Shown in pieces: positions 34,526 through 54,622 of a stretch of DNA of 64,000 bases. The position numbers were made by a program, and so were the translations under genes. This DNA comes from Streptomyces chattanoogensis (GTDB lineage Bacteria > Actinomycetota > Actinomycetes > Streptomycetales > Streptomycetaceae), in the NCBI RefSeq assembly GCF_001294335.1, contig NZ_LGKG01000196.1, forward strand, positions 346,349 to 410,348. Reading direction: 5' to 3'. The stretch's first letter is position 1. The number at the start of each line of letters is the position of its first letter. The notes beneath the pieces were generated by a model. That model was not told the origin of the DNA and did no database searches. It worked only from the letters and a program-made list of their open reading frames with translations.

Positions 34526-34615
34526 GCCTTCTTGCGGGCCTTCTTACCGGGCCCTGTTACCGGGCCTTCTCACTGAGCGTTGTCACTGGGCCTTGTTACT
34601 GGGCCTTCTTCTTAC
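34526..34615 (-). repeat. 13-bp tandem repeat running through a stop codon
   Basis: Six to seven degenerate units of about 13 bp (GCCTTCTTACCGG-type on the plus strand: 34526, 34538, 34551, 34564, 34577, 34590, 34603). The array includes the last codons and the TAA stop of the surface-protein gene and continues 70 bp past it. Confidence 0.8.
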
Positions 34616-41044: not shown

Positions 41045-41117
41045 GCCCCCGTAGCTCAGCGGATAGAGCAGGTGCCTTCTAAGCACTTGGCCGCAGGTTC
41101 GAGTCCTGCCGGGGGCG
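41045..41117 (+). tRNA. tRNA-Arg (anticodon UCU)
   Basis: The cloverleaf folds fully. Acceptor GCCCCCG (41045-41051) pairs with CGGGGGC (41110-41116), with discriminator G at 41117. The D stem is GCTC/GAGC, the anticodon stem GGTGC/GCACT (one G-U pair) with loop CTTCTAA and anticodon TCT (41078-41080), and the T arm is GCAGG-TTCGAGT-CCTGC. It reads AGA/AGG, rare codons in this genome. CCA is not encoded. Confidence 0.97.
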
Positions 41118-41124
41118 CTTTTCC

Positions 41125-41151: not shown

Positions 41152-41458
41152 GCTGTCCGGTGCGCGGGAGATGCAGCGGGTGCGGGCACATGCGGCCCCT
41201 CCGCCGGGACCGGCTCAACTGCGCTTTTCGGGGAGCGTGTTCTTCAGCGGGCGGGGAGAGTCGGCGGACTCATCCGCTTATTCGCATTTTCGGGACGGGG
41301 CTCTCACATTCATCCCGCCGCCGAACCACGTCAACAGCCCACCGGACAAACGCTCTACGGATTCCACCGCCCTACGACACGGAGCACGCGACGGAGTGGA
41401 GGCCCCAGGACCACTACTGCTAGTGTGCGCACGGTCACAGTAGGCAATCAGGCCGCTA
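41152..41458. other. Upstream region of the short rodlin gene
   Basis: No gene seen. Together with the conserved leader at 41459-41487 this is the regulatory region of the first gene of the surface-protein cluster. It does not carry the long block found upstream of the other rodlin-leader genes. Confidence 0.35.
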
Positions 41459-41487
41459 TGTACAGGTAATGAAGGGCCGAAGGTTCC
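41459..41487 (+). promoter_or_regulatory. Rodlin-type leader, copy 1
   Basis: TGTACAGGTAATGAAGGGCC followed by GAAGGTTCC and the ATG. Closely related leaders stand before 44526, 46441 and 54622 on the minus strand. GAAGG serves as ribosome site. Confidence 0.65.
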
Positions 41488-41739
41488 ATGCGCAAGCTTC
41501 AGCAGGTCGCGATCGTCGCCACAGCAGCAGCCGGCGGTCTGTCCGTCATCAGTGCCGGCGCCGGCACCGCCTACGCCGGCGGCCACGAGCCGAAGGTGAA
41601 GCCCATCTTCCGTCCGTACCAGGAGTGCAGTCCGCAGACGTTCGCGCAGGCCAAGTTCCCGATCGACGCCCTGCTCGGCGCCTCCGCGAACTTCGACACC
41701 ACCTGCGGCCAGTTCAACCACGCCTTCACCAAGCACTGA
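41488..41739 (+). CDS. Short rodlin-like secreted protein
   Basis: An 83-residue protein: a signal peptide (RKLQQVAIVATAAAGGLSVI, cleavage after AYA near residue 30) and a 53-residue mature part. The mature part contains the rodlin signature PIFRPYQECSPQTF followed by LLGASANFDTTCGQFNH. Full rodlins, such as the one at 45917-46441, continue with VHCTQANGQ-type repeats; here the protein stops after the second Cys region. Rodlins organise chaplin fibrils into the rodlet layer of aerial hyphae and spores. The leader and terminator are both of the rodlin type. It may be a short natural variant or a truncated copy. Confidence 0.85.
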   Translation: MRKLQQVAIVATAAAGGLSVISAGAGTAYAGGHEPKVKPIFRPYQECSPQTFAQAKFPIDALLGASANFDTTCGQFNHAFTKH

Positions 41740-41993: not shown

Positions 41994-42051
41994 GTAACTG
42001 TACGAAGTCGATCAATTACTGATCGCATCCGCTCGATTTACCGGAGAAGAT
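41994..42051 (+). promoter_or_regulatory. CRSHD-type leader, copy 1, with CGATC-N7-GATCG
   Basis: Conserved stretch GTAACTGTACGAAGTCGATC onward to CCGGAGAAGAT before the ATG. It contains the inverted repeat CGATC (42009-42013) N7 GATCG (42021-42025), 26 nt from the start codon. It recurs before three other CRSHD genes. GGAGAAG is the ribosome site. Confidence 0.7.
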
Positions 42052-42378
42052 ATGCGCAAGCTTCAGAAGGCTGCCGTCATGGTCGCCGCCCTCGGCACCA
42101 TCGGCCTCCTCGGTGCCGGCACCGCCTACGCCGACGGCGGGTACAGCGGCGGCAAGGGCGACAAGGGCGAGAAGGCCGGCAGCCTCTACAACATCAAGCA
42201 GGGCAGCTCGTGCCGGTCGCACGACCTGAACGTCGACGTCCTGGGCGAGGTCGGGGTCCTCAACGGCGTGCTGGGCAACGCACTCGGCGGCGAGGGCGCC
42301 GCGGGTGCACAGTCCACGCCGATCGGCTCGAGCATGGGCTGCAACGACAGCTTCGGCAGCGGCGGCGGCGGAAAGTAA
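42052..42378 (+). CDS. CRSHD-family small secreted protein 1 (chaplin-like core)
   Basis: A 108-residue exported protein of a family repeated five times in this region. The signal peptide (LQKAAVMVAALGTIGLLGAG) is cleaved after AYA near residue 28. A Gly/Lys-rich spacer follows, then the conserved domain: SSCRSHDLNVDVLGEVGVLN, then GVLGNALGGEG, AQSTPIGSSMGC, and a Gly-Ser tail. The core VGVLNGVLGNALG matches the chaplin pattern VGxLNPxxGNxxxN, but the cysteines lie outside it. It starts at ATG 42052 after GGAGAAG and is followed by the shared terminator. Function is not known; a hyphal surface or amyloid role is inferred from neighbours. Confidence 0.85.
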   Translation: MRKLQKAAVMVAALGTIGLLGAGTAYADGGYSGGKGDKGEKAGSLYNIKQGSSCRSHDLNVDVLGEVGVLNGVLGNALGGEGAAGAQSTPIGSSMGCNDSFGSGGGGK

Positions 42379-42385
42379 GCGAAAT

Positions 42386-42430
42386 GGGTCCCGGTGTCCG
42401 AGCCACAGGCCGGCGCCGGGGCCCGTTTTC
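42386..42430 (+). terminator. GAGCCACAGGCC-loop terminator, copy 1
   Basis: GGGTCCCGGTGTCCG (42386-42400) pairs imperfectly with CGGCGCCGGGGCCC (42411-42424), loop AGCCACAGGC, followed by GTTTT. It belongs to a set of five related hairpins after the paralogous genes. Confidence 0.8.
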
Positions 42431-42507
42431 GACCTTCTACACGGTCCGGGCGCGGACCGGTTCGCGGTGCGTGGCGCCCGGACACCAATCACAAAGGAAC
42501 CCAGCAC

Positions 42508-42906
42508 ATGTTCAGTCGGAAGAAGATCGCAGCCGTCTCGGCGCTCTTGGGCGGCCTCGCCGCGACCTGCGCCGGCGCCAGCCAGGCGTATGCCGGTGGG
42601 ACTTCGGGCAACTGCGCCCGTGACATCACGGGCAACGTCAACTGCCTCCAGAAGAACACTTCCTACATCACGGAGGACGGCAGGTACACCGTCAAGCAGG
42701 CGCAGAACTGTGCGTCGATGCAGCCGGTCTCCTGGCCCGCACAGGGCCTGCTGAACACTGGGAGCTCACAGATCGGACCCACCGCGAACTGCTCCAACAC
42801 GGCACCGGCGCCCGAAGAGCACGCCGAGCCGGCGCCGGCCCCCGAGCCCAACGCGCCCACCGCACCGGCACCGGCGGCGCCGTCGGCGCCGGCACCGGCG
42901 GCCTGA
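42508..42906 (+). CDS. MFSRKK-type small secreted protein 1, Pro/Ala tail
   Basis: A 132-residue exported protein. The signal peptide is MFSRKKIAAVSALLGGLAA with cleavage after AYA near residue 29. The mature part has four cysteines (GNCARDI, NCLQKNTS, NCASMQPV, NCSNTAPAP) and ends in about 45 residues of Pro/Ala/Glu repeats (PAPEPNAPTAPAPAAP). It is the paralogue of the protein at 53545-53892; their upstream 45 bp, including CACAAAGGAAC before the start, are nearly the same. It follows a CRSHD gene by 129 bp, as its paralogue does. Function is unknown; the Pro-rich tail suggests a wall-spanning spacer. Confidence 0.8.
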   Translation: MFSRKKIAAVSALLGGLAATCAGASQAYAGGTSGNCARDITGNVNCLQKNTSYITEDGRYTVKQAQNCASMQPVSWPAQGLLNTGSSQIGPTANCSNTAPAPEEHAEPAPAPEPNAPTAPAPAAPSAPAPAA

Positions 42907-43017
42907 GAACGGCTGCCCCGCACTTCTCGAACGGTGGCGGGCCGAACCGCGTTGATCCCGGTCCGGCCCGCCACCGTTTGCGCGCCCGCGCCGGGCTCCG
43001 GGAGAACAGCACGAAAA

Positions 43018-43058
43018 GGGGTTCCGGCGCCGAGCCACAGGCTCGGCGCCGGAACCCC
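43018..43058. terminator. GAGCCACAGGCTC-loop terminator, copy 2 (bidirectional)
   Basis: Perfect 19-bp stem (43018-43036 with 43040-43058) closed by an ACA loop, flanked by AAAA on the left and TTT on the right. It separates two convergent genes. Confidence 0.88.
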
Positions 43059-43086
43059 TTTCGGTTGGCTGCGCGGCTGCCGGCGC

Positions 43087-43365
43087 TCAGAGAGCGCTGT
43101 TGTTGCAGCCCATGGACGCACCCATCCTGGTGGTCTGCCCACCCGGGTGTCCCTCACCGTTGAGCGCGTTGCCCGCCAGGCCGTTGAGGGCTCCGACCGA
43201 CCCGAGGATGTCGACGTTCATGTCGTGCGACCGGCACGAGGTGCTCTGCGTGACGCCGATGTCATGGGCACCCGCCTCCCCGTGGGCCGAGGCGGTACCG
43301 GCGCCGAGGGCGCCCACGCTGCCGAGGACGGCGCCCACGAAGGCAGCCTTCTGAAGCTTGCGCAT
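43087..43365 (-). CDS. CRSHD-family small secreted protein 2
   Basis: A 92-residue exported protein. The signal peptide LQKAAFVGAVLGSVGALGAG is cleaved after ASA near residue 28. The spacer HGEAGAHDIGVTQS is short. The conserved domain is TSCRSHDMNVDILGSVGALN, GLAGNALNGEG, GQTTRMGASMGCNNSAL, with two cysteines. ATG 43365 follows GGAGAAGAA; longer in-frame forms would remove the signal peptide. It is the shortest form of the family and shows the minimal unit: signal, two Cys, chaplin-like VGALNGLAGNALN core. Confidence 0.83.
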   Translation of the reverse strand: MRKLQKAAFVGAVLGSVGALGAGTASAHGEAGAHDIGVTQSTSCRSHDMNVDILGSVGALNGLAGNALNGEGHPGGQTTRMGASMGCNNSAL

Positions 43366-43432
43366 TTCTTCTCCGGTGATTGAGCGGATGCGATCTGCAA
43401 CAGATCGACTTCTTACAGTGGCGTAGGTTCGA
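43366..43432 (-). promoter_or_regulatory. CRSHD-type leader, copy 2
   Basis: Inverted repeat CGATC (43391-43395) N7 GATCG (43403-43407), 26 nt from ATG 43365, followed in the gene's direction by CATCCGCTCAATCACCGGAG. The similarity to the other copies fades beyond about 65 bp. The remainder of 43433-43674 shows no gene. Confidence 0.65.
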
Positions 43433-43674
43433 GAGGGAATTCGCCGCACCGCCCGGCACGGCATCGACAGACCGGACGGGCGGAGGGCCCTATAGCTGGG
43501 CACGGACCGAGAGGTTGCCCCGCTCCCGCGGAAAGAGCCGCGGAGGCAGGGCAGTTACAGCGGGCCCGCCGGGCGGTTCGCGCCGGCCCCGCGGGCGTTC
43601 AACGGCGGCCGGCGGCCCCGCCTGCCCCATTGCTGCACTCCGGGGTGGGGGCCGGGCCGTACCGACGTGAACGG

Positions 43675-44526
43675 TCAGGAGAGTCGGGGCAGATCGAGCT
43701 GCCCCACCGGAGCCGCCGCGAGACGTCCGAGACCGACCGGGGAGACCTGCGGGACACCCGGGGCGACCAGCGGGTTGATCAGCGGATTGACCTGGGGATT
43801 CACCTGCGGGTTGACCTGGGGGGCGACCTGCGGGGCGTGCTGCGGGGGAACGACCTGCGGGACGACGACCTCCGGCGCGACCTGCGGGGTGACCTGCGGG
43901 GCAGCCTGGGGGACCACCTGCGGCATCACCTGCGGAACGACCGGCTGCTGAGCAGGAGCGGCCGCCTGCGGGGCAGGCTGCGGGGCCGCCTGCGGGGCAG
44001 CCTCCTGCTGATGCGAGGCGTGACTGGCGGAAGCCTGCGAAGCGCCCTGCGAGCTGGCGTATGCGGTGGTGTGGGGGCCGTCGTGCTCCGGGGCGGCCTG
44101 CGGCGCCGGAGCGGCCTGCGGGGCCGGCGGCTGCGGAGCGGGAGCCGGGGCGGGAGCGGCCTGCGGGGCCGGCGGCTGCGGAGCGGGGGCCGGAGGTGCC
44201 GGCGGCTGCGGGGCGGGGGCGGCCTGCGGCTGGTAGGCGGGCTGGGGAGCCGGAGCCGGCTGCGGCTGGTAGACCGGCTGCGGAGCGGGAGCCGGCTGCG
44301 GCTGATACGCCGGCTGCGGCTGGTAGGCCGGCTGGGGGGCGGCCTGCGGCTGGTACGCCGGCTGCGGAGCGGGAGCCGGCTGCGGCTGATACGCCGGCTG
44401 CGGAGCGGGAGCCGGGGCGGCCCCGTACCCGACGGGGGGAGCGTCGGCATGGCTGACCCCGGCGCCGATTGCGGACAGACCGCCGGCCGCCGCGACGACG
44501 AGCATGGCCTGATGAAGCTTGCGCAT
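43675..44526 (-). CDS. Pro/Gln-rich repeat protein with rodlin-type leader and signal peptide
   Basis: A 283-residue exported low-complexity protein. The signal peptide RKLHQAMLVVAAAGGLSAIG is almost that of the rodlin at 45917-46441. The mature part has three blocks: tandem AYQPQPAPAPQP and PPAPQAAPAP repeats (about residues 35-150), a Ser/His-rich bridge (AYASSQGASQASASHASHQQ) shared in style with the rodlin, and PQVxPQV repeats (about 190-250) ending VNPLINPLVAPGVPQVSPVG. No cysteine and no RPYQECSP rodlin domain is present. It starts at ATG 44526. It looks like a rodlin relative that kept only the repetitive half; Gln-rich PQ repeats may favour assembly or wall spanning. Confidence 0.78.
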   Translation of the reverse strand: MRKLHQAMLVVAAAGGLSAIGAGVSHADAPPVGYGAAPAPAPQPAYQPQPAPAPQPAYQPQAAPQPAYQPQPAYQPQPAPAPQPVYQPQPAPAPQPAYQPQAAPAPQPPAPPAPAPQPPAPQAAPAPAPAPQPPAPQAAPAPQAAPEHDGPHTTAYASSQGASQASASHASHQQEAAPQAAPQPAPQAAAPAQQPVVPQVMPQVVPQAAPQVTPQVAPEVVVPQVVPPQHAPQVAPQVNPQVNPQVNPLINPLVAPGVPQVSPVGLGRLAAAPVGQLDLPRLS

Positions 44527-44555
44527 GGAACCCTCGGCCCTTCATTGCCTGTACA
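44527..44555 (-). promoter_or_regulatory. Rodlin-type leader, copy 2
   Basis: TGTACAGGCAATGAAGGGCC then GAGGGTTCC before ATG 44526; differs from copy 1 at few positions. The upstream stretch to about 44615 also matches the rodlin gene at 46441 (AGCAATAAGCAAT and TTAGCGCGCGC-like parts). Confidence 0.65.
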
Positions 44556-45300
44556 TGGAAATCTGCATTGCTTATTGCTGTCTTGCGCGCGCTAACAGTG
44601 GTAATCCCGGGGGTTCACGCCCTGCGCACCCCGTGTCGGACCACGGTGAAAGCCTCCCGCAGGCCCTCGACGGCACTCGCTGCGCTGCCTTCCAACGCTC
44701 CTCGAAGCCGACGGCGGATCCCATCGCCTCTCCTCTGAATTCACGTCAGACAACATTGCCGGCGTAGTCGCCACGGGCCGCCCCGGCACCAAGGAAGAGC
44801 ATTTCCGGGCAGGCGGCCCACGGGCCCATTCGCTGTTCTCTCCCAGGGGGCAACGAGATTTCCCCTGGTCGGGACACGGGAACCGATGCGCGGTCACCCA
44901 TTTGCCACGTTCCGCTTATCGGGCTGTCGGCGGCGGCCCGGCCGCTCTTCGGGCCGCAGCCGGTGCAGAAGGCGGGGGCGGCATCGCGGTGACGGGAAAG
45001 ACGGAATTCACCCCGGCGCGTTCGAGGGGCCGGGTGGTGCCGGGGCGAGACGCCGTGCGCGCTTTCGACTGTGGGCAAGGCATTCCCACCCCCGCCCGCC
45101 GAACCGGCCGCGCCAGTTGACGAACATTCAGCCGAGGGGATCCATTCGGCAATGGCGGCACGGGAATTGATTTCGTGTCAGGTGGGGCTGCTCAGGCAGG
45201 GCTGCCTGTGGCGATCCAGCAATGCAGCCCCATCAACCGGACCGGCCGTGCGGGACAGGCGACTCTGCCCGTCTCTCACGGCCGGTCCGGAACATCGAAA
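44556..45300. other. Long upstream region of the PQ-rich gene
   Basis: About 745 bp without a credible gene, although several frames are open. It contains conserved block A (44836-44908), also present upstream of two other rodlin-leader genes. A large regulatory region or remains of a lost gene would explain it. Confidence 0.4.
44836..44908 (-). promoter_or_regulatory. Conserved far-upstream block A
   Basis: About 70 bp shared with 46630-46700 and 54886-54957; common strings include CCTGGTCGGG, CAACGAGATTTC and CGGTCACCC with TTTGCC. It lies 310 bp before ATG 44526. Confidence 0.6.
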
Positions 45301-45302
45301 AC

Positions 45303-45340
45303 GGCCCCGGCATCGGCCTGGTGGCTCGGATGCCGGGACC
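45303..45340 (-). terminator. GAGCCACCAGGCC-loop terminator, copy 3
   Basis: Stem between GGCCCCGGCATC and GATGCCGGGACC (one mismatch), loop CGGCCTGGTGGCTCG on the plus strand, 33 bp beyond the stop of the minus-strand CRSHD gene 3; AAAA (45297-45301) gives the T-run on the minus strand. Confidence 0.78.
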
Positions 45341-45373
45341 TCTTTCGCTTACCTACGCGACTGCCCGATGGGC

Positions 45374-45655
45374 TCAGAGAGCGCTGTTGTTGCAGCCCAT
45401 GGACGAGCCGAGGGTGGTGGACTGCGCACCCGCGGGGCCCTCGCCGTTGAGCGCGTTGCCCAGCACGCCGTTGAGGATCCCGACCTCGCCGAGGATGTCG
45501 ACGTTCAGGTCGTGCGATCTGCAGGAGCTGCCCTGCTTGATGTCGAACTTGTTGCCCGCCGGCTTCCCGCCGTCGGCGTAGGCGGTGCCCGCGCCGAGGA
45601 TGCCGATGCTGCCCAGGGCGGCGGCCACGACGACAGCCTTGTGAAGCTTGCGCAT
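45374..45655 (-). CDS. CRSHD-family small secreted protein 3
   Basis: A 93-residue exported protein. The signal peptide LHKAVVVAAALGSIGILGAG is cleaved after AYA near residue 27. A spacer DGGKPAGNKFDIKQG leads into the domain SSCRSHDLNVDILGEVGILN, GVLGNALNGEG, AQSTTLGSSMGCNNSAL. It matches CRSHD protein 1 through the whole domain apart from a few residues. It starts at ATG 45655 with GGAGAAGAA. Leader, gene and terminator are all copies of the same three-part unit. Confidence 0.85.
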   Translation of the reverse strand: MRKLHKAVVVAAALGSIGILGAGTAYADGGKPAGNKFDIKQGSSCRSHDLNVDILGEVGILNGVLGNALNGEGPAGAQSTTLGSSMGCNNSAL

Positions 45656-45770
45656 TTCTTCTCCGGAAGGTTGAGCGGCTGCGATCTGTGAGGGATCGAC
45701 TTCGTACAGTTACGGAGACTAATCACGAAATATCCTGAAGTCGCGTAGCGACGCGCCGGATTGTATGATC
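45656..45770 (-). promoter_or_regulatory. CRSHD-type leader, copy 3 (long form)
   Basis: Inverted repeat CGATC (45682-45686) N7 GATCG (45694-45698), 26 nt from the start. Similarity to copy 4 (48485-48600) continues for about 115 bp, through GTAACTGTACGAAG, GACTTCAGGATA, CCGGCGCGTCG and ATACAATCC (gene strand), so the promoter itself is conserved. Confidence 0.75.
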
Positions 45771-45849
45771 GAGGGCTTGAAGCCTGCCCGTGCCGAGCTC
45801 TGTACGGCCGGATGCACGCGCCGCGTTCGGTCAGTCACGCCGCACGCAA

Positions 45850-45884
45850 ACGGGCCCTTCGGGGTGCTCCCCCGAAGGGCCCGT
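45850..45884 (-). terminator. Rodlin-type terminator, copy 2
   Basis: Perfect 15-bp stem ACGGGCCCTTCGGGG (45850-45864) with 45870-45884, loop TGCTC; on the minus strand TTTGCGTGCG follows, as after the short rodlin gene. Confidence 0.88.
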
Positions 45885-45916
45885 GGCGGGCGTGATGCGC
45901 GGCGGCCTCAGTGGTC

Positions 45917-46441
45917 CTACCTGGCGTGGGCGTAGGCGTTGGACTGGCTGTTGGTCTGGCCGTTGGCCTGGGTGCAGTGGACGCCCGAGGTCTGCGGGGC
46001 GGCAAGCAGGCCGACCGGGACGTTGGCGTCGAGCAGCGACTGGGGGCTGCACTCCTGGTACGGGCGGAAGAGGTTGTTCTGGTCCTGCATGCCGCCGCCC
46101 AGCAGGGAGCCCTGCGGGGCGGCCTGCGGCGCGGTCGGCGAGGAGACCTGCGGGGAAATCTGCGGGCTGAGCTGGGGGTTGAGCTGTGGCGAGACCTGCG
46201 CCCCGGACTCCTGCGGGGCAGCGCCCTGCGGGGCGTCCTGCTGCGGAGAAGCGTGCGACCCGGAAGCGTGCGAAGTGGCCTGCGAAGCGCTCCAGGCCTG
46301 GGGGCCGTCCGGCTGCGGAACGGGCGGCGAGGCGGCACCGTTGTACGCCATGGGAACGTCGGCGGAGCTGGCGCCGATACCGATGGCGGACAGTCCGCCG
46401 GCCGCTGCGAAGACGAGCGCGACCTGATGAAGCTTGCGCAT
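45917..46441 (-). CDS. rdl: Rodlin with PQ-rich N-terminal insertion
   Basis: A 174-residue rodlin, the protein that arranges chaplin fibrils into the paired-rod surface layer of aerial hyphae and spores. The signal peptide RKLHQVALVFAAAGGLSAIG ends near ASS-AD. The C-terminal rodlin domain (about residues 110-174) contains NNLFRPYQECSPQSLLDANV, PVGLLAAPQTSGVHCTQANG, and QTNSQSNAYAHAR, with both cysteines. Between them lies a linker of about 85 residues with ASQATSHASGSHASPQQ and QLNPQLSPQISPQ repeats. Such a long PQ linker is more than I expect from RdlA/RdlB (about 130 residues). It starts at ATG 46441. Only this one full-length rodlin is in the window. Confidence 0.9.
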   Translation of the reverse strand: MRKLHQVALVFAAAGGLSAIGIGASSADVPMAYNGAASPPVPQPDGPQAWSASQATSHASGSHASPQQDAPQGAAPQESGAQVSPQLNPQLSPQISPQVSSPTAPQAAPQGSLLGGGMQDQNNLFRPYQECSPQSLLDANVPVGLLAAPQTSGVHCTQANGQTNSQSNAYAHAR

Positions 46442-46470
46442 GGAACCCTCGGCCCTTCGTTACCTGTGCA
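46442..46470 (-). promoter_or_regulatory. Rodlin-type leader, copy 3
   Basis: TGCACAGGTAACGAAGGGCC then GAGGGTTCC before ATG 46441. The conserved upstream part extends to about 46530. Confidence 0.65.
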
Positions 46471-46629
46471 TGGAAATCTGATTGCTTATTGCTCTTTTGT
46501 GCGCGCTGACAGTGGTAATCCTGGGGTTTCACACCCTGCGCACCCCCGTGCGGGACCACGATGGAGACCTCTCGCAGGCCCACGACACCACGTGTCGCAA
46601 CCGCCCTCCCGACGGGCCCATTCACCGTG

Positions 46630-46700
46630 TTCTCTCCCAGGGGCAACGAGATTTCGCCTGGTCGGGTCACGGAAGACGGCGTGTGGTCACCCGTTTGCCA
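46630..46700 (-). promoter_or_regulatory. Conserved far-upstream block B
   Basis: The second copy of the 70-bp block (see 44836-44908), 189 bp before the rodlin start. It shares TTCTCTCCCAGG, CCTGGTCGGGTCACGG and GGTCACCCGTTTGCC with the other copies. No gene lies in 46442-46825. Confidence 0.6.
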
Positions 46701-46825
46701 ACTGGCGTGAATCATTTCGGGTGTTGATGGCCCGCCTGGGCAATGGGCGGTGACAGGCGGTGGGGCGTGCACAACTGCGGTGTGAATACCTCCCGTTGGA
46801 GGACCGGCCTCGGGGCGGACATCAC

Positions 46826-46865
46826 ATGAGTGTGGGGCCCGGCGGTTGCCGGGCCCCACACTCAT
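46826..46865 (-). terminator. Terminator after the chaplin gene
   Basis: Perfect 18-bp stem (46826-46843 with 46848-46865), loop GGTT, 43 bp past the chaplin stop. Confidence 0.88.
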
Positions 46866-46908
46866 ACATGACAGAGCGACAGTTTCGAACGGCTGTCACT
46901 GCCTACAT

Positions 46909-47442
46909 TCAGTCGCGCGCGGCGACTCGGCGGCCCCGGCGGTAGAGCAGGACGCCACCGATGATCATCGCCGCACTGGCGCCGGCCGGAATCGCCAGGC
47001 TGACCTTTTCCGCACCGGTGCGTGCCAGCTCGGGGCGAACGGGGGCCGCAGCGTGGAGCTGGTGGCGCTGGTGCTGCTGGACGTGCTGGTGGTGATGCTT
47101 GATCGCGCGAGTGACGACCGGAGGCGCCGCCTGACGGTGGCGGTGAGTCGGCTTGGCGCGGTGCTGCTGCGGCTTGTGACGCATCTCCGAGTGGTGCCCG
47201 TGCCCGTGCTCGACATTGGCGCAGCGGTTGCCGATAGCGGGGTTGAGCGCTCCGACCACATTGACCGTGTTGCCGCAGATGTTGGCCGGGATGTGGATCG
47301 GCACCTGAATCAGGTTGCCGGAGAGTACGCCGGGAGAACCGACGGCAGCCCCGTGGGCGCCGCTGTCGGCGAGGGTCGTGCCCGCACCCATGAGCAGCAG
47401 GCCGCCGGTGGCAGCCGAAGCGGCAATGACCTTTTTGATCAC
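46909..47442 (-). CDS. chp: Sortase-anchored chaplin with one chaplin domain and a His-rich stalk
   Basis: A 177-residue chaplin. The signal peptide (KKVIAASAATGGLLLMGAG) is cleaved after TLA near residue 25. One chaplin domain follows (about residues 36-75): GVLSGNLIQVPIHIPANICG, NTVNVVGALNPAIGNRCAN, with both cysteines. A stalk of about 50 residues is unusually rich in His and Gln (HGHHSEMRHKPQQHR, IKHHHQHVQQHQRHQ). The C-terminus has LARTG, a membrane helix and RRGRRVAARD, an LAxTG class E sortase signal. Known long chaplins carry two chaplin domains; here there is one. GTG 47442 follows AAGGAG by 5 nt. It would anchor the hydrophobic layer to the wall. Confidence 0.92.
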   Translation of the reverse strand: MIKKVIAASAATGGLLLMGAGTTLADSGAHGAAVGSPGVLSGNLIQVPIHIPANICGNTVNVVGALNPAIGNRCANVEHGHGHHSEMRHKPQQHRAKPTHRHRQAAPPVVTRAIKHHHQHVQQHQRHQLHAAAPVRPELARTGAEKVSLAIPAGASAAMIIGGVLLYRRGRRVAARD

Positions 47443-47758
47443 GTGACTCCTTCTTAGCAGTGCGGTCACGGCCGCGGACCGCACAAGCCTCAACGAGGCC
47501 GGAAGGGGAAGGCTACGAATCCGGCATTTCGATCACTCATTCAGCTTGGCGCATACGCTCACTCGGCTGACGAGTGACGTCATTCCGATTTTATGGAGAG
47601 GTTTTCCCCGTGGCGGTCACTTCCGGGAAAAGCCGAGGACAGGGGCTGTCCTTTGATGATCCGGCCGCCCGAGCCCGCCGGCACAACGGCCCGACCGCCC
47701 CCTGCCCGCCTTTGATTGCGGACCCCGAAATGACCCCGACGGACCATTCGGCGGGCCG
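47443..47758. other. Chaplin upstream region
   Basis: 316 bp with no gene. It contains the inverted repeat TCACTCG-GCTGA-CGAGTGA at 47559-47577, 117 nt before the chaplin start, and lower GC around 47510-47600, so the chaplin promoter is probably here. Confidence 0.5.
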
Positions 47759-47989
47759 TCAGAAAATGAGCTTTTCGACGCCCGATGCGCCGGTCCCGGC
47801 CGGGCGGTCAAGCGGGTTGAGCACCTCGAACGGCACGTGGCCCACCTGCAGCCCGCCGATGTTGGAGTTCAGCCTCACGGGATCGCCGACGATGCCGAGG
47901 ACGCCGGGGCCGGGATCGGCGTGGGCGGGGGCGGAGAAGGCCCCGGCGAGAGCGAGGGCTGCCACGAAGGTGGCGAGTGCGCGGCGCAT
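47759..47989 (-). CDS. Small secreted protein with a VLNPL motif
   Basis: A 76-residue exported protein not known to me. The signal peptide (RRALATFVAALALAGAFSAP) ends AHA near residue 24. The 52-residue mature part, DPGPGVLGIVGDPVRLNSNI then GGLQVGHVPFEVLNPLDRP, has no cysteine and is rich in V, L, G and N; VLNPL recalls the LNP of chaplins. It starts at ATG 47989 after AGGAG. It is oriented like the chaplin gene but 316 bp upstream, so probably separate. It may be another small surface-layer component. Confidence 0.75.
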   Translation of the reverse strand: MRRALATFVAALALAGAFSAPAHADPGPGVLGIVGDPVRLNSNIGGLQVGHVPFEVLNPLDRPAGTGASGVEKLIF

Positions 47990-48484
47990 AGCGGCTCCTG
48001 CTTCATTTCGTGTCATTCGCGTGCTGCGTGCACAGCGCACCCTTCCACTCGTGCGGGACTGGCTCCGGCATCTGCGCCATGCACGCCGAGCGATCACCTG
48101 ATCGCACGGTCGCGAAAGGCTTGCGCGCGATTTTCCAGGAAGTGCGCACCGTTACGCCGCACGGGGGAATTCCATGGCCTCTGCTCGCGGGCACCGCACC
48201 GCACGGTCCTCGGCAGGGATTTCGCCCGGCCTCGCCGGGGCAGGAGGCGCGTATCGCGTCAGCAGCGAACTCCGGCGCCCCGTGACGCGAAATCGGGCTG
48301 GAATCCGGGAGGTGCCGGGCCATGTTTCCGGGGTCGCCGCTCCCTACTCGACCGCTCGTTGATATGCAGCTTGGCCTAATAGGTGGTGCGCGCAGGGCCG
48401 AACAGGTGGTGCGCCACGGCGGGCCCGACTGCGCCGGACCGTAAATGCCCTGATCTGCTCGGAGTGAGCGGGAAAACGAGCGCT
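47990..48484. other. Divergent intergenic region
   Basis: About 495 bp between the small secreted-protein gene and the fourth CRSHD leader. Open frames are present, but none has a ribosome site, signal sequence or similarity to neighbours. No hairpin or repeat stands out. Confidence 0.35.
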
Positions 48485-48600
48485 CCATCATACAATCCGG
48501 CGCGTCGTTGCGCGACTTCAGGATAATTGGCTATTAGCCTCCGTAACTGCACGAAGTCGATCGATCACAGATCGCATCCGCTCAACCTTCCGGAGAAGAA
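48485..48600 (+). promoter_or_regulatory. CRSHD-type leader, copy 4 (long form)
   Basis: Inverted repeat CGATC (48558-48562) N7 GATCG (48570-48574), 26 nt before ATG 48601. The match to copy 3 runs through ATACAATCCGGCGCGTCG (48490 onward), GACTTCAGGATA and CCGTAACTG. GGAGAAGAA is the ribosome site. Confidence 0.75.
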
Positions 48601-48906
48601 ATGCGCAAGCTTCGCACGGCTGCCATCGTGGCCGCCGCCCTCGGCACCCTCGGCATCCTCGGCGCCGGCACCGCGTACGCCGATGGCGGTTACGGCGGCA
48701 AGAGCAGCGGCGGCAGCAGCGGCTCCTCGTTCGAGATCAAGCAGGGCAGCTCCTGCAGATCGAAGGACACGAACGTCGACATCCTCGGCGAGGTCGGGAT
48801 CGCCAACGGCCTGGGCGGCAACCTGCTCGGCGGCGAGGGCGCCGCGGGAGCGCAGTCCACCACGCTCGGCTCGTCCATGGGCTGCAACAACAGCGTCGGC
48901 AAGTAA
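48601..48906 (+). CDS. CRSHD-family small secreted protein 4
   Basis: A 101-residue exported protein. The signal peptide LRTAAIVAAALGTLGILGAG is cleaved after AYA near residue 27. A Gly/Ser spacer (GGYGGKSSGGSSGSS) precedes the domain SSCRSKDTNVDILGEVGIAN, GLGGNLLGGEG, AQSTTLGSSMGCNNSVGK. It is the most divergent of the four free-standing copies (SKDT for SHDL, VGIANGLGGN for VGILNGVLGN). It starts at ATG 48601. Both cysteines are kept. Confidence 0.85.
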   Translation: MRKLRTAAIVAAALGTLGILGAGTAYADGGYGGKSSGGSSGSSFEIKQGSSCRSKDTNVDILGEVGIANGLGGNLLGGEGAAGAQSTTLGSSMGCNNSVGK

Positions 48907-48930
48907 GCACCGGCCAGTAGCGGAAAAGAG

Positions 48931-48964
48931 CCCCGGTGTCCGAGCCACAGGCCGGACACCGGGG
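48931..48964 (+). terminator. GAGCCACAGGCC-loop terminator, copy 4
   Basis: CCCCGGTGTCCG (48931-48942) pairs perfectly with CGGACACCGGGG (48953-48964), with inner GCC/GGC pairs closing an ACA loop. Confidence 0.85.
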
Positions 48965-49021
48965 CCTTGTTCTGAGCGTGCGGCCGGCGCGCGGGCCGTC
49001 CGGGCCCGGCGCCGCGGCCGG

Positions 49022-50008
49022 TCAGGCGATGCGCCGGATCCGGGGGAAGGACGCCGCCGCGGCGAGGAACAGCCAGGTGGTGATGACGAAGGGCCAGCTG
49101 AGGGTGCGTCCGCCGAACGGCGCGAAGTAGGCGTTCAGGGCGGCCGTCAGAACCGTCGTGACGGCGACGGCCACCAGGGTGTACAGCGCGTTCGGCACCG
49201 TCCTGGCAAGGAACAGGCCGCCCATGGCGACGGCCACGAGGACCGCGTTGTAGCCGTAGACGCCCGCGGCGACCGCAGCCGGCGGGGCGCCCAGGGCCCA
49301 GGACAGGAGTACGGCCACGGCACTGCCGGCGACGGCGGCCAGCCCGTAGCGGATCCCGCCGACGAAGAGCCCCACCAGCATGATCGCGCCGACGTACCAG
49401 TGTGCCGACAGGCCGACCTGGGAGATGTTGGCGAAGAACCCGTGCCACAGGTCGGTCCAGGTGTACGCCGTGCCGGGGGCGGCGGCGATCGGCAGAGCCG
49501 CGGTGCTGCCGCCGGGCCAGACCCGGGTGAAGGCCGGGGCCGCCGCCAGTACCGCTCCGACGACCACACAGAACGGCGCGGTCAGCACCGGCAGCCGCCA
49601 GGGCGCCACCAGGGCGGTCAGCGCCGCGAAGGCCAGTACGCAGACGACGGCACCGCCGATGGTCAGCAGGTATGTCGAGGGGTGGGGGCCCAGGAAGACG
49701 TACAGGGCGATGCCGGTCAGACAGCCGCAGAAGCCCTGCGTTCCCATGTCGATGATGTACCGGTCGACACCCACCGCGTACGCGGTCGCGGTGGCGACCA
49801 CGGCGCCCAGCAGCCCGAAGACGCCCCCCTGCCAGCTGCTCACGAAGAGCGCGAGCGTGAACAGGACACCGGTCCAGACATTCGTCAGCAGGCTGAACTG
49901 GCCGAAGCTGCGGACCAGCTGTGCCGCGAGGCGGACCGGGCCGGGCAGCGCGGGGGGCTCCGCGGTGGTGTCGGGTCCGTCCGGCTTCCAGGTGTCGGGG
50001 GTGATCAC
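49022..50008 (-). CDS. Urea transporter (UT family)
   Basis: A 328-residue integral membrane protein of the urea transporter family, a passive urea channel. About ten helices in two homologous halves are visible. Family landmarks are FGQFSLLTNVWTGVLFTLAL near residue 35, a first-half segment GFCGCLTGIALYVFLGPHP near residue 92, and the second-half equivalent GVYGYNAVLVAVAMGGLFL near residue 245. GTG 50008 follows AGGAGG by 5 nt. It lies 95 bp behind the transglutaminase-like gene and may be its operon partner, which would tie urea to that pathway. The allantoicase gene at the start of the window also makes urea but is too far away for common transcription. Confidence 0.92.
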   Translation of the reverse strand: MITPDTWKPDGPDTTAEPPALPGPVRLAAQLVRSFGQFSLLTNVWTGVLFTLALFVSSWQGGVFGLLGAVVATATAYAVGVDRYIIDMGTQGFCGCLTGIALYVFLGPHPSTYLLTIGGAVVCVLAFAALTALVAPWRLPVLTAPFCVVVGAVLAAAPAFTRVWPGGSTAALPIAAAPGTAYTWTDLWHGFFANISQVGLSAHWYVGAIMLVGLFVGGIRYGLAAVAGSAVAVLLSWALGAPPAAVAAGVYGYNAVLVAVAMGGLFLARTVPNALYTLVAVAVTTVLTAALNAYFAPFGGRTLSWPFVITTWLFLAAAASFPRIRRIA

Positions 50009-50103
50009 GGTGCCTCCTAGGCGGTCCGGGTACGCCGCCGTGCCCGCTGCGGGAGGTGGGGCCCGCTCTGCGCACGGACCGCGGCGCACCGCCGCGTCCG
50101 GCC

Positions 50104-50784
50104 CTACGGCAGGACGCCTTGCGGCAGGGCGTGTGTCGAGGGCAGAGGGTGTGTCGAGGACACGGCGTGCGGGTGTTCCGGGGCGTGCGGCTTTGACGGA
50201 GCGTCAGGATCGTGGGCCGTCGGCGAAGCGTCAGGGGCCGCCGTTTCAGGGGCGAGCTGCCACTGCCCGCCGTCCTCGCGGAGAGCGAGGACGTGTCCGC
50301 TCCCCGTGTGTGCCCCCGGCCCCGAGAACCAGCGGGCGTCGCTCGGGTCCCACCAGCGGTTCCCGACCCGGAGCACCTCGTGGTGCACCGTGTTCCGCCC
50401 GATCCACGCGTCGTTGACCTGCGCCTCGTTCCAGACGGCCCGCCAGTGCGCGGGGGCCATCGGCGGGGTCAGCACCGCGGCGCGGGCCCGCGTGTGCGGT
50501 ACGGACTTCCGGGTGAGGAGCGCCGCCGCCACATCGGCGTGCACCCCGCAGTCGCCGACGAGGTCACCGTGGTCCACCAGGTCACACCAGTGCGCCGGCC
50601 ACTGCACGGGCCCCCACCGGAAGAGCCCGGGGACGGCGGCGAGCGCGGTCCCTGTGTCCCCGTAGTGCATGAGCTGGGCGAACACGCTGTGCTTGACCAT
50701 CTCGCAGCACGCCTTCGGGTGACTGGCCACCTGGGACAGTTCGATCCGGTCGAACCGCTTCAGATCCCCCATCAGTCCACTCAT
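50104..50784 (-). CDS. Transglutaminase-like protein (Cys-His-Asp fold)
   Basis: A 226-residue soluble protein of the transglutaminase/papain-like superfamily by motif reading. The proposed triad is Cys in LVGDCGVHADVAAALL (near residue 78), His in TVHHEVLRVGNRWWDPSD (near residue 134) and Asp in the same WWDPSD segment, with the spacing usual for this fold. The last 45 residues are His/Pro/Ala-rich and probably disordered. ATG 50784 overlaps the stop of the fusion gene before it (ATGA), so both are made together. In small-molecule pathways such folds act as amide ligases, acyltransferases or proteases. I do not recognise the exact family. Confidence 0.72.
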   Translation of the reverse strand: MSGLMGDLKRFDRIELSQVASHPKACCEMVKHSVFAQLMHYGDTGTALAAVPGLFRWGPVQWPAHWCDLVDHGDLVGDCGVHADVAAALLTRKSVPHTRARAAVLTPPMAPAHWRAVWNEAQVNDAWIGRNTVHHEVLRVGNRWWDPSDARWFSGPGAHTGSGHVLALREDGGQWQLAPETAAPDASPTAHDPDAPSKPHAPEHPHAVSSTHPLPSTHALPQGVLP

Positions 50785-53360
50785 GGCTGCCCCAATTCCC
50801 GCGGCGCGGTCCCGCGCCCGAACTCGTAGGCCATGGAGGTGTCGTATCCGCCGCACATGCCGAATGCGAGGTAGTCGCCCTCCCGGACGTCGGTGAGGTC
50901 CAGCCGGACCGACAGCACGTCGTGTTCCATGCAGGACCTGCCCAGAATCCAGCTCCAGCCGGGGCGCAGCGGTTCCCAGCGGGAGCCGTCGAACCTGGCC
51001 ACGGGATGTGGATGGAAGGGCGCCTCGGGCATATCGCCTTCGGCCGCGTCGACGACGATGTCATAGCCGCGGTGCGATGCCCGGCGCGCCAGAACCTGTG
51101 TCACCACCGCGGCCGACGGCTGGGTGAGGAGCTTGCCCGGCTCCATCACCAGCAGCGGATCGCCGTCGCGGGCGGCGGCGGGACCGTTCGCGCGCACATA
51201 GTCCAGCGAGGCGCGCAGATACGACAGGTCGTCGACATGCCAGCCGCCGCCGATGTCCAGTACGGCCGGTGGCCCGCCCAGCAGGTCCGCCAGGGGATCG
51301 GCCGCACTGAGCGCCGCCACGCATTCGCGCTCCCAGCGCGGTGCGCCCAGGACGCTCTGGGCGAAGTGGAAGTGCATCCCCCATCCGGCTCCGAGGCGAT
51401 CGGCGAGGGTGCCGAGCAGCCGGGCCGCCTCCACCATGGTGTCGCGCTCGTGCAGCGGGACGCCGAAGCGGCTGATGAGCCCGGTGGGCGCGACACGCAC
51501 CCCGACGACCTCGGCTTCCAGCTGGAAGCCGTTGTCCAGAAGGTCACCGAGCCTGCTCAGTTCCGCCAGGGAGTCGGCGAAGAAGGCGAAGCAGCGGACG
51601 CGGTCGGTGGCGGGCCACCATTTCGCGGGCCCGTTGAGGATCGCGCGTTCCGGCGCCATGCCGTGCCGCTCGGCCGCTTCGAGCTCGGCCAGGCTGATCG
51701 CCTCGGCGGCCAGACCGAGCCGCGCGGCCTCACGCAGGACGGCGGGCTGCGGGCAGGTCTTCACGCTGTGCGCGAGGAGCACCCGGCCGATCCCCTCCAC
51801 TTCCTGCCGCAGGGCCTGGACCCGCTCGGTGAAAAGGGGAAGGAGGACCTGCCGGTACGGAGTGGCCGCGTTCCCCGGGGGGTCGAGCAGCCTCTCGAAG
51901 CCTTCGGTGTGCGCGGCCGGTTCCTTTGTCCGGGTGGCCGGCCGTTCCGCAGGTGCGGGCCGTCCTTCCACGCGCCCGGCCGGCATCCCGTTGTGTGCGG
52001 GCGCCCCCACCGCCCCCGCGCATTCGGCCGTTTCCACCGATTCCGCGAAATCCGCCGTTTCTCCTGCTCCCGCGTATTCGGCAGCCACGCCGATCCGTGC
52101 GGCGGATCCCGGGTTCGGGTGGCTCTCGACCGGCTCGTCGGCGTCCTCGGGCGGGAGCAGGCGCCGTTGGCCCAGCGACGGCATTCCCGAATGCCGCTTG
52201 TCGCCCGGACGGGAGATTCCGCCGGCGACCCAGGCGATGGGGGTGATGCCCAGGGCCGGGTGGACCGGGATCTCCTCCACCACGCGGGTGAAACCCGGCG
52301 TGAGCCGTCTGCCGCGGTCGGCGGGCCGTCCCGCGACCAGGGCGGCGGGCAGGTTGGCGCCGCACACCGAGGTGCCGTGGATCCAGGCGGGGAAGCGCGG
52401 ATTGATCTCCATGAGCGTCAGTTCGCCGCTCCAGCTGCGGATGAGCTCCAGTTCGCCGGCGCCGGTCCACCCGGCGTCGGCGACCAGGTCCGCCAGCCGC
52501 TCGCGCATGGCCTCGTCCAGCTCGGCGACCTCGCCGGCCCAGGTCTTGCCCTCGGTCGTGACCATCGCCTTGGTGATGAAGACCGCGTCGAGCAGCCGGC
52601 CGTCCAGACCGCAGAACGCGATGCTGCACTCCTGGCCGGCCACATGCGCTTCCAGATGCCAGCTGCCGCCCCACGTCCGCTGGACCACATCGCCCAGGGC
52701 CAGCGCGGCCCCGGCGGTGTAGGCGCGGTGTGCGTCGTAGTGCTGGCCCTTGACCCACACCCCGTACGGGGACCGGCGGATGAACCGGTCGATGGCCTCC
52801 CAGCTGGTGTCGGTCTCGTACTCCGCGGCGCGCAGGCCGAGCCGTTCCGCCGCTTCGACCGGAGGTTTGCCCACCAGCTCCAGTGCGGCCTTCGAGGGCC
52901 CCAGGATCCGGTCATGGGAGCCGAGCTCCCGTGCCAGCAGCCGGACTTCCAGATCCAGACAGGGGATCAGGACCGCGTCCTCGGGCTCCAGAAGGCGGTC
53001 CATCTGCTCGATCCACGTGGGGAGGTGCGCCTCGCGCCATGCGGGGAGACAGACCAGGTCGTCGAGAAGCTCCGAGTGCAGGCCCGAACTCTCCCGCGAA
53101 TAGTCCAGCCCGACGATCCGGAGTCCGGGCCGGGCGAGACGCAGGGAACGGGCGACGCTCAGGCCCGGCGAGGGGTTCGGGCCACTGTGCATACCGCTGA
53201 CGAAGACCGTGCCGACCTCCGTCCCGGGACCCCCGGCGCTCGCGGCGTTCTCCGGGCGCGGGGTGCTCCCCTGTGGTGCCTCAGGCCTGGTGACATCCCT
53301 GCTCGCGCCCGCCGGCTCGCGTCCGTTGTGCTCTGTTTGAAGCCCCATGCCGAACATCAT
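50781..53360 (-). CDS. ATP-grasp / PLP-dependent decarboxylase fusion enzyme
   Basis: An 859-residue two-domain enzyme. Residues about 65-410 are an ATP-grasp ligase (IPCLDLEVRLLARELGSHD, GVWVKGQHYDAHRAY with ATP-binding lysine, GELTLMEINPRFPAW with the metal ligands). A low-complexity linker of about 80 residues follows. Residues about 480-855 are an alanine-racemase-fold decarboxylase (ornithine/diaminopimelate type): PLP lysine in LLAHSVKTCPQPAVL, AVLDIGGGWHVDD, LLVMEPGKLLTQPSA, the GRSCMEHDVL active-site segment, and CGGYDTSMAYEFGRG. No clear ribosome site is seen; ATG 53360 is used, and ATG 53348 is possible. It is overlapped by a transglutaminase-like gene. It may ligate and decarboxylate an amino acid. 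Confidence 0.85.
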   Translation of the reverse strand: MMFGMGLQTEHNGREPAGASRDVTRPEAPQGSTPRPENAASAGGPGTEVGTVFVSGMHSGPNPSPGLSVARSLRLARPGLRIVGLDYSRESSGLHSELLDDLVCLPAWREAHLPTWIEQMDRLLEPEDAVLIPCLDLEVRLLARELGSHDRILGPSKAALELVGKPPVEAAERLGLRAAEYETDTSWEAIDRFIRRSPYGVWVKGQHYDAHRAYTAGAALALGDVVQRTWGGSWHLEAHVAGQECSIAFCGLDGRLLDAVFITKAMVTTEGKTWAGEVAELDEAMRERLADLVADAGWTGAGELELIRSWSGELTLMEINPRFPAWIHGTSVCGANLPAALVAGRPADRGRRLTPGFTRVVEEIPVHPALGITPIAWVAGGISRPGDKRHSGMPSLGQRRLLPPEDADEPVESHPNPGSAARIGVAAEYAGAGETADFAESVETAECAGAVGAPAHNGMPAGRVEGRPAPAERPATRTKEPAAHTEGFERLLDPPGNAATPYRQVLLPLFTERVQALRQEVEGIGRVLLAHSVKTCPQPAVLREAARLGLAAEAISLAELEAAERHGMAPERAILNGPAKWWPATDRVRCFAFFADSLAELSRLGDLLDNGFQLEAEVVGVRVAPTGLISRFGVPLHERDTMVEAARLLGTLADRLGAGWGMHFHFAQSVLGAPRWERECVAALSAADPLADLLGGPPAVLDIGGGWHVDDLSYLRASLDYVRANGPAAARDGDPLLVMEPGKLLTQPSAAVVTQVLARRASHRGYDIVVDAAEGDMPEAPFHPHPVARFDGSRWEPLRPGWSWILGRSCMEHDVLSVRLDLTDVREGDYLAFGMCGGYDTSMAYEFGRGTAPRELGQP

Positions 53361-53544
53361 CAGCAGAGCTTTCGCCGCGCGCACCCGGTGACGGCCGCCA
53401 GGGTGAGGCGCCGCGACGGCCCGCCGGCCGCGGCCGCGGAGTGCGGGCCGCCGGGGGCCGTCGACGGCGGGGCGGTCCGCATCCGCCCGGAACCGTAGTG
53501 CCGGACGCGGGATCAACCCGGTCCGGCCGTCCGCCGTTCGCTCC

Positions 53545-53892
53545 TCAGATCCCGAAGTGCGGCAGCTTGATGTGCTGGGGCAGCCGGACCGTGTTGGAGC
53601 AGTGCACGATCGGGCCGGCCTTCGTGGCCCCGCTGCCCAGGAAGCCGAGTTCGGGCCACAGCACGCGGTCGCGGGCGACCGTCGAGCAGCTCTTCCGCTG
53701 CTTGATGATGATCTTGCCGTCCTTGCTCCGGTGGACGGCCTGGCCCTTGTAGACGCAGGTGCGGTCGCCCGACGCGGCGCGGGTGCAGTCGCCCGAGGAG
53801 TCTCCGGCATACGCCTGGGTGGCACCGGCGCAGGTCACGGCGGCGGCGCCCAGGAGCGCCGAGACGGCTGCGATCTTCTTACGACTGAACAT
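53545..53892 (-). CDS. MFSRKK-type small secreted protein 2
   Basis: A 115-residue exported protein, paralogue of 42508-42906. The signal peptide MFSRKKIAAVSALLGAAAV matches at almost every position, with cleavage after AYA near residue 29. The mature part has four cysteines at corresponding places (GDCTRAA, TCVYKGQ, KSCSTVAR, HCSNTVRL). It lacks the Pro/Ala tail and instead ends LPQHIKLPHFGI. It starts at ATG 53892 with AAAGGAAC upstream, as in the paralogue. It follows a CRSHD-domain gene on the same strand, repeating the arrangement seen at 42 kb in inverted orientation. Confidence 0.8.
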   Translation of the reverse strand: MFSRKKIAAVSALLGAAAVTCAGATQAYAGDSSGDCTRAASGDRTCVYKGQAVHRSKDGKIIIKQRKSCSTVARDRVLWPELGFLGSGATKAGPIVHCSNTVRLPQHIKLPHFGI

Positions 53893-53975
53893 GTGCGGCG
53901 TTCCTTTGCGATCGATGCCCGGGCGCGGTCACCGCGTACCGGTGTGCGCCCGGGCCCTGAAGAGGATCGGAAAAC

Positions 53976-54015
53976 GGGCCCCGGCGCCGGGCCTGTGGCT
54001 CGGACGCCGGGACCC
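53976..54015 (-). terminator. GAGCCACAGGCC-loop terminator, copy 5
   Basis: GGGCCCCGGCG on the left pairs with CGCCGGGACCC on the right (bulged), loop CCGGGCCTGTGGCTCGGA; on the minus strand the loop reads GAGCCACAGGCC. It follows the chimeric gene by 40 bp. AAAA at 53971-53974 supplies the T-run. Confidence 0.78.
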
Positions 54016-54055
54016 CTTTCACTGGTTTTCTGGAGGGTCTGCCTGCCGAGGGCGA

Positions 54056-54622
54056 TTACTTGGCGAGGGCGGTGTTGTTGCAGCCCAGGCTCGAGCCCTG
54101 CCTGGTGCTCTGCTTGCCCGGGTGGCCCTCACCGTTGAGCGCGTTGCCCAGCACACCGTTGAGGAGCCCGACCTGGCCGAGGATGTTGACGTTCAGGTCG
54201 TGCGTGCGGCACGAGGTGCTCTGCTTGATCTTGGTTTCCTTGCCCTTTTCCTTTCCCGGCCACGACTGGGGGGCGGGCTGCTGCGGCGCGGGCGCCTGCG
54301 GGGCGTAGACCTGCGGCGCGGGCTGCTGCGGGGCAGGCTGCGGCGCGGGGGCCTGAGGGGCGTAGTACTGGGGGGCGGGCTGCTGCGGCGCGGGGGCCTG
54401 AGGGGCGTAGTACTGCGGGGCGGGCTGCTGCGGGGCCATCTCGTGGTGCGGGTAGGCACCCTGCGCACTGGCCCCCGCAGCGGACTGCGAAGTGGCCCAT
54501 GCAGTGACCTGCGGGCCGCCACCCTGGTACCCGTAGCCGTCGGCGAAGCTGACGCCGGCGCCGATGGTCGACAGCGCACCGGCCGCTGCGACGACGATCA
54601 CGACGTTGTGAAGTTTGCGCAT
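54056..54622 (-). CDS. Chimeric secreted protein: rodlin-type leader, PQ repeats, CRSHD domain
   Basis: A 188-residue exported protein joining two families of this region. The signal peptide RKLHNVVIVVAAAGALSTIG and the leader DNA are of the rodlin type. Residues about 35-130 carry QVTAWATSQSAAGASAQGAY and repeated PQQPAPQYYAPQAPAP units with several Tyr. The C-terminal 55 residues are a complete CRSHD domain: STSCRTHDLNVNILGQVGLL, NGVLGNALNGEG, KQSTRQGSSLGCNNTALAK. The gene ends with the CRSHD-type terminator. It starts at ATG 54622. The natural reading is a recombination between a rodlin-like gene and a CRSHD gene, and it links the two groups functionally. Confidence 0.82.
   Translation of the reverse strand: MRKLHNVVIVVAAAGALSTIGAGVSFADGYGYQGGGPQVTAWATSQSAAGASAQGAYPHHEMAPQQPAPQYYAPQAPAPQQPAPQYYAPQAPAPQPAPQQPAPQVYAPQAPAPQQPAPQSWPGKEKGKETKIKQSTSCRTHDLNVNILGQVGLLNGVLGNALNGEGHPGKQSTRQGSSLGCNNTALAK

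Follow-up and report, generated by a model that had tools for sequence, protein, structure and literature searches.

The stretch of DNA considered here (the window throughout, 64,000 nucleotides of Streptomyces chattanoogensis, G000:C196:346349-410348 in the 9.13-Mb genome that we label G000) carries a block of genes for small secreted proteins, in which five genes of a family that we call CRSHD lie among two of a family called RPYQ, for its RPYQECSPQ motif, and two of a family called MFS, after MFSRKK, the last label having been coined in this analysis. An earlier note on this DNA had described five open reading frames (ORFs) as one secreted family with a chaplin-like core; all five are present and translate as it described, the start of CRSHD2 being most likely the ATG at 43365 rather than the GTG at 43503. 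That note missed a larger point, however, which is that CRSHD travels in a conserved island with the two further secreted families.

The CRSHD, RPYQ and MFS families form one co-inherited module. Among the 199 Streptomyces genomes from which the distribution counts were drawn, a profile search finds the CRSHD core in 29, and RPYQ (profile A4) and MFS are each found in 28, these being the identical 28 genomes and all of them among the 29 with CRSHD; the one extra genome, G148, has a single weak CRSHD match. The co-occurrence of the three families has a Fisher p of 3e-33, a statistic that ignores relatedness. Chaplins (PF03777) are found in 199 of 199 of the same genomes. Within the Streptomycetaceae the CRSHD core occurs in 15 of 150 genomes and 4 of 17 genera, and across the phylum the full-length CRSHD model matches 5 of 396 genomes, G013, G107 and G346 over the N-terminal region only. 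The SCP1 spore proteins SapC/D/E were considered as well, and plasmid searches returned CRSHD in three Streptomyces replicons and long RPYQ in one. The genome of the window has 10 CRSHD genes in all.

That CRSHD is a family far beyond chance is clear from several observations. The C-R-S-H-D block, written as a degenerate DNA pattern, has four matches in the window against 0.17 expected, and none of 100 shuffles reaches four; CRSHD4 reads SKD where the other four members read SHD. As the earlier note had it, the products of the five genes have in common a core of ~55 residues with two cysteines; CRSHD1 to CRSHD5 each have in addition a signal peptide, of Sec type (MRKL, a hydrophobic stretch, then AxA) as read from the sequence by eye. 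One member matches 428 proteins at E<=1e-3. The best 120 of these were listed; where they have a name it is hypothetical or secreted protein, in a few cases 'DUF320', and the organisms given are Streptomyces or Streptacidiphilus. Nineteen columns are invariant in an alignment of 57 rows (A1), both cysteines (C45 and C88) included, and exactly two cysteines are present in 120 of 123 CRSHD proteins (three in the other 3). No convincing match to an enzyme or inhibitor family, which by the earlier note would have refuted its reading, nor to phage families, was found in Pfam, NCBIfam, PDB or PHROGs. None of the five window proteins has a near-cut-off match in Pfam (whose scans covered 17 window proteins) or NCBIfam, PHROGs returned nothing for them, the best PDB match has an E of only 0.53, and the best NCBIfam match among the 57 relatives (E 0.0027, matched by 7 members) is to an unrelated enzyme model. 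A tree was built from 64 members of 19 selected loci. In it CRSHD2, CRSHD4 and CRSHD5 each fall with genes of other species and not with one another (support 0.57, 0.86 and 0.99, respectively), CRSHD2 with one CRSHD subtype, and as such the paralogues look old; CRSHD1 and CRSHD3 pair with one another (support 0.80).

Table 1. Genes and sequence elements of the CRSHD block (window positions).
Feature	Position	Strand	Remarks
tRNA-Arg (TCT)	41045..41118	+	ARAGORN; 0.37 kb upstream of short RPYQ gene, same strand
Motif B of short RPYQ gene	41458..41490	+	
Short RPYQ protein	41488..41739	+	83 aa, signal peptide, RPYQECSPQ...C
Motif A of CRSHD1	41994..42013	+	GTAACTGTACGAAGTCGATC; 0 mismatches
Palindrome/hairpin upstream of CRSHD1	42009..42025	+	CGATC..GATCG
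CRSHD1	42052..42378	+	108 aa
MFS1, secreted 'MFSRKK' family	42508..42906	+	132 aa, Pro/Ala-rich tail; profile match G000:C196:388946-389182
CRSHD2	43087..43365	-	92 aa from ATG 43365
Motif A of CRSHD2	43403..43422	-	3 mismatches
Secreted Ala/Pro/Gln-rich protein	43675..44526	-	283 aa; Pfam: no match
Motif B of Ala/Pro-rich gene	44524..44556	-	
CRSHD3	45374..45655	-	93 aa
Motif A of CRSHD3	45694..45713	-	0 mismatches
Long RPYQ protein	45917..46441	-	174 aa, Pro/Gln-rich middle, C-terminal RPYQECSPQ domain
Motif B of long RPYQ gene	46439..46471	-	
Chaplin	46909..47442	-	One ChpA-C domain (PF03777, 91.8 bits), LPXTG-like (LARTG) sorting signal
Sigma-BldN-like promoter of chaplin	47490..47517	-	CGTAGC-N16-CGTTGA, one mismatch
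Motif A of CRSHD4	48543..48562	+	1 mismatch
CRSHD4	48601..48906	+	101 aa, SKD variant
MFS2, secreted four-cysteine protein	53545..53892	-	115 aa
CRSHD5	54056..54622	-	188 aa; Pro/Gln-rich linker, then CRSHD core

By profile comparison, the closest relative of CRSHD is the four-cysteine MFS family of the same block (score 31.6; permuted maximum 17.4, none of 200 as high; P 1.2e-5 in a second comparison), a false MFS row (L020) having been removed before the permutation tests. RPYQ shows no such similarity, permutations as good being found in 106 of 200 cases against CRSHD, 74 of 200 against chaplins and 29 of 100 against rodlins. The chaplin claimed for the neighbourhood is there (Table 1), its Gram_pos_anchor match of 14.4 bits lying under the cut-off of 20. 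Chaplins (ChpA-H; PF03777 ChpA-C, formerly DUF320) are, like CRSHD, small, secreted, multicopy proteins with two cysteines and a short VGxLNxxxGN stretch, and are often genomic neighbours. The 'chaplin-like core' of the earlier note thus survives as a resemblance, but one confined to a local match of 13 columns. Against 17 chaplin domains this match scores 18.0, which 2 of 200 column permutations reach, and against 44 chaplin domains the score is 18.7, which none of 100 permutations reaches (highest 18.6); as a signal of kinship it is suggestive at most, and the VG-LN-GN likeness is possibly convergent or a very remote resemblance. With the HMMER filters on, PF03777 matches none of the 57 CRSHD members at E<=10, and no ORF in the surveyed loci is matched by both the CRSHD and the chaplin models. 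Three GN motifs or more occur in 44 of 44 chaplin domains vs 5 of 236 CRSHD cores, a count of GN only and not of its spacing; the definition of a chaplin given in a passage of PMC13251363 is of three GN motifs 12-13 residues apart. The cysteines, said by the earlier note to lie outside the core, flank the core in chaplins too, and it is their spacing that differs: C-x42-C in 225 of 236 CRSHD cores and C-x17-C in 44 of 44 chaplin domains, where both sets were chosen by patterns that include those cysteines and the chaplin pattern allows little freedom of spacing. Fewer than two cysteines are present in 11 of the 236 cores as extracted, these being pattern-shortened or without cysteine. Membership of CRSHD among the chaplins was rejected on the evidence of Pfam, GN count, cysteine spacing and a lower hydrophobicity; the two differ also in their distribution and in the sigma-BldN-like promoter, which was not found for CRSHD. 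Some CRSHD and RPYQ proteins do carry chaplin or DUF320 as automatic names of the UniProt type, although PF03777 matches neither the 57 CRSHD members nor either RPYQ protein of the window; these labels look misleading.

Rodlins, which the earlier note had also placed in the cluster, were not recovered: the window has no match at E<=1 to a rodlin profile (built on 12 sequences that resemble rodlins, the majority of which are neighbours of chaplins in other genomes), and the other small secreted proteins of the block belong to different families. Like CRSHD, rodlins (RdlA, RdlB) are secreted by Streptomyces and have two cysteines, and the overall hydropathy of the two is similar; however, the profile similarity of rodlins to CRSHD, RPYQ and MFS does not exceed that of permutations (as high by hhalign in 68 of 100 for CRSHD and 32 of 100 for MFS, beside the 29 of 100 for RPYQ), and kinship was rejected. 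A rodlin pair does adjoin one island, that of Streptomyces sp. LUP47B (L057), which has a rodlin/chaplin group on one side and a long chaplin on the other, and a partial rodlin match is found at the edge of locus L016. CwpA and CwpB of Actinoplanes missouriensis, chaplin-free proteins proposed in a passage of PMC13251363 to make the hyphal surface hydrophobic, are described there as sortase-anchored and single-copy, unlike CRSHD, which is multicopy and without a sorting signal.

The neighbourhood survey took the best 80 of 255 related stretches, which gave 76 named loci. Of these, 45 hold RPYQ or MFS (island loci) and 31 have CRSHD without either. Among the carriers of the island are S. noursei and S. 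natalensis (L013, L018). A chaplin is present in 19 of the 45 island loci, usually 0.5-2 kb away, vs none of the 31 stand-alone CRSHD loci; at a chaplin density of ~1 per Mb (9 matches in G000), roughly one would be expected in the 813 kb of island loci, an excess that carries no formal probability because the loci are related by descent. The genes that flank the block in the window seldom recur among the 76 loci (an ABC protein in 4, others in 1 to 2, several in 0). Moreover, 1 kb or more of sequence is available before 33 of the short RPYQ genes, and 8 of these have a tRNA gene within 1 kb upstream, 6 being Thr-TGT and 2, that of the window included, Arg-TCT. From the flanking genes and the differing tRNAs it follows that the chromosomal site of the island is not always the same.

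Several other genes accompany the block. MRKLHKAA proteins resembling the Ala/Pro/Gln-rich product were found in other islands (by regular expression only), as was, in many of them and by the same means, another family of secreted proteins (MRKFQRVAVVAA..., ITAVANSSANAVA), of which the window showed no member (e.g. L058, L065, L045 and L071:11619-11948). Beside the chaplin, positions 47759-~48010 (- strand) encode a small secreted protein (DPGPGVLGIVGDPVRLNSNIGG...) with a relative in 1 of the 76 loci, L016. The island is interrupted at 49022-53825 (- strand) by a urea transporter (PF03253), a 250-aa protein and a long ORF with a pyridoxal phosphate-dependent (PLP) decarboxylase domain (PF02784) and sub-cut-off ATP-grasp matches; the transporter and the 250-aa protein have relatives in only 1 of the 76 loci, again L016. 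A secreted protein with a thioester domain (Pfam TED), a type of domain known from surface adhesins, is encoded at 34596-35975 (- strand), with relatives in L018 and L066.

The upstream regions offer some indication of how the module may be controlled. Motif A (GTAACTGTACGAAGTCGATC, at most 3 mismatches) has 7 sites in G000, and at every one of them a CRSHD gene follows closely (7 of the 10 in that genome); the reversed pattern has none. It is found in 12 of 12 other island genomes (38 sites) vs 3 of 12 non-island genomes, with one 3-mismatch site each; among the CRSHD matches listed, one follows closely on all 28 of the 38 sites that have no more than 2 mismatches and on 6 of the 10 that have 3. 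Under a looser pattern, 90 of the 159 upstream regions extracted are of class A, and motif A is therefore common, not universal; CRSHD5 has none within 3 mismatches and is of class B upstream. The stricter pattern is fitted by 52 of the 159 regions, 34 after removal of near-duplicates, and 30 of these (L019, L042, L061 and L068 being left out) were aligned with 3 window genes. Motif A continues into a palindrome. The pairing of this palindrome is conserved in 97.0% of alignment cells, with some compensatory change; 11 cells show double changes, a number that none of 500 shuffles attains, and 2 pairs have double changes, a number that 311 of 500 shuffles reach. Single-sequence RNA folding of the palindrome is ordinary (z 0.24, -0.66, -0.34 and -1.15), so that a strong RNA structure was rejected and it may equally be a DNA operator. 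Motif B has 3 sites in G000, before both RPYQ genes and the Ala/Pro-rich gene. No sigma-70-like promoter was found, against 0.7 expected. Separately, G+C-rich, similar hairpins lie 3' of CRSHD1, 3, 4 and 5, three of them followed by TTTT (GGTCCCGG..CCGGGGCC-GTTTTC), and suggest putative terminators shared among the paralogues.

It is reasonable to postulate that the module provides extracellular surface proteins, accessory and inherited together, which work beside the chaplins and are controlled separately, a reading to which we give about an even chance of being correct. On this account the CRSHD proteins would be exported by way of their signal peptides, and each mature protein would be closed by one disulphide, since nearly all have exactly two cysteines. 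Given the multicopy subunits, the lack of enzyme families and the association with chaplins, they may then assemble as a layer, or as a filler, that covers or surrounds hyphae or spores alongside the chaplin sheath. This would be an optional outer component in about one Streptomyces species in seven, and a regulator that is not sigma-BldN would switch it on. With many similar secreted subunits and no enzyme, such a system would work in the manner of chaplins or rodlins without belonging to either family. Replacement of chaplins by the island was considered and rejected, chaplin number showing no difference between genomes with and without it (p 0.57).

Several points weigh against this postulate. 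That lack of a difference in chaplin number is one, and 26 of the 45 island loci have no chaplin, although some loci are truncated. The CRSHD core is also only moderately hydrophobic, with a mean grand average of hydropathy (GRAVY) of -0.13 (n=224) vs 0.43 for chaplin domains (n=44), although rodlins have -0.17. AlphaFold2 models of CRSHD and MFS are unusable, with a mean predicted local distance difference test (pLDDT) score of 51.8 and 51.2, respectively. Last, no site within 2 mismatches of the sigma-BldN consensus (CGTAAC-N16-CGTTGA, as given in a passage of PMC2375139) precedes the CRSHD (200 nt upstream), RPYQ or MFS genes, in a scan that is not sensitive, because only 3 of 21 chaplin ORFs of other loci had such a site, and whose background is 29 of 2000 stretches. 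Among the genes of the window, the chaplin alone carries a sigma-BldN-like site, and the module is therefore not obviously in the chaplin regulon. What stands of the 'second, undescribed class' of the earlier note is a family of the Streptomycetaceae that carries no curated name, is secreted as judged from its sequence and is linked statistically to chaplin genes; chaplin-like control, and chaplin kinship beyond the 13-column resemblance, are not supported.

A more ambitious version, doubtful at this time, holds that CRSHD, RPYQ, MFS and the Pro/Gln-rich linkers would make up a complete second exoskeleton, a multi-family coat that assembles independently beside the chaplin/rodlin sheath, answers to a regulator of its own and travels as one unit from one chromosomal site to another. 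It is unlikely that the module instead encodes secreted competition factors (antimicrobial or antifungal peptides, or inhibitors) made patchy by diversifying exchange. The patchy presence, the multicopy small two-cysteine proteins and the different tRNA genes adjoining 8 of 33 short RPYQ genes would suit such factors, but the sequences are strongly conserved between species rather than diversified, no immunity gene, dedicated exporter or maturation enzyme was recognised in the block (from the gene list and Pfam scans), and the Pfam, NCBIfam and PHROGs scans matched no toxin, inhibitor or defence family. It is improbable to a similar degree that the module serves substrate hyphae as an extracellular matrix or an adhesive glue, or supplies proteins that are cross-linked in the wall, as opposed to an aerial coat. 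Here the Pro/Gln-rich long members (long RPYQ, the Ala/Pro/Gln-rich protein and CRSHD5) and the thioester-domain surface protein near the island are favourable; the latter, however, is found in only 2 of the 76 loci, and bacterial transglutaminase (PF09017) occurs in 10 of 199 genomes, of which only G090 is shared with the island, so that cross-linking by this enzyme was rejected for want of co-occurrence. Least probable is that CRSHD proteins are strongly diverged chaplins of common ancestry, with the VG-LN-GN core kept, the loop enlarged and the second cysteine moved, as the 13-column match, the chaplins near island loci and the few automatic chaplin or DUF320 names might suggest, in view of the failure of PF03777 and of any ORF to join the two families, the differing GN counts and cysteine spacing, the presence of the core in only 29 of 199 genomes that all have chaplins, and the much closer likeness of CRSHD to MFS.

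Full-text searches of open-access papers returned none with the CRSHD family described in its title or the start of its abstract, and a prior description is possible in subscription papers, which were outside the scope of the search. Passages of a 2014 review of streptomycete development (PMC4255298) name three kinds of exoskeletal protein: chaplins, rodlins and SapB-like peptides. If the accessory surface set that we favour does form a further surface layer, the coat would be modular and species-specific, and the module would provide a defined set of genes for deletion. Even if it is no coat, three secreted families without a Pfam match, currently annotated as 'hypothetical protein', share a cluster and promoter elements and, in occurring together in 28 of 199 genomes, constitute a ready-made functional unit.

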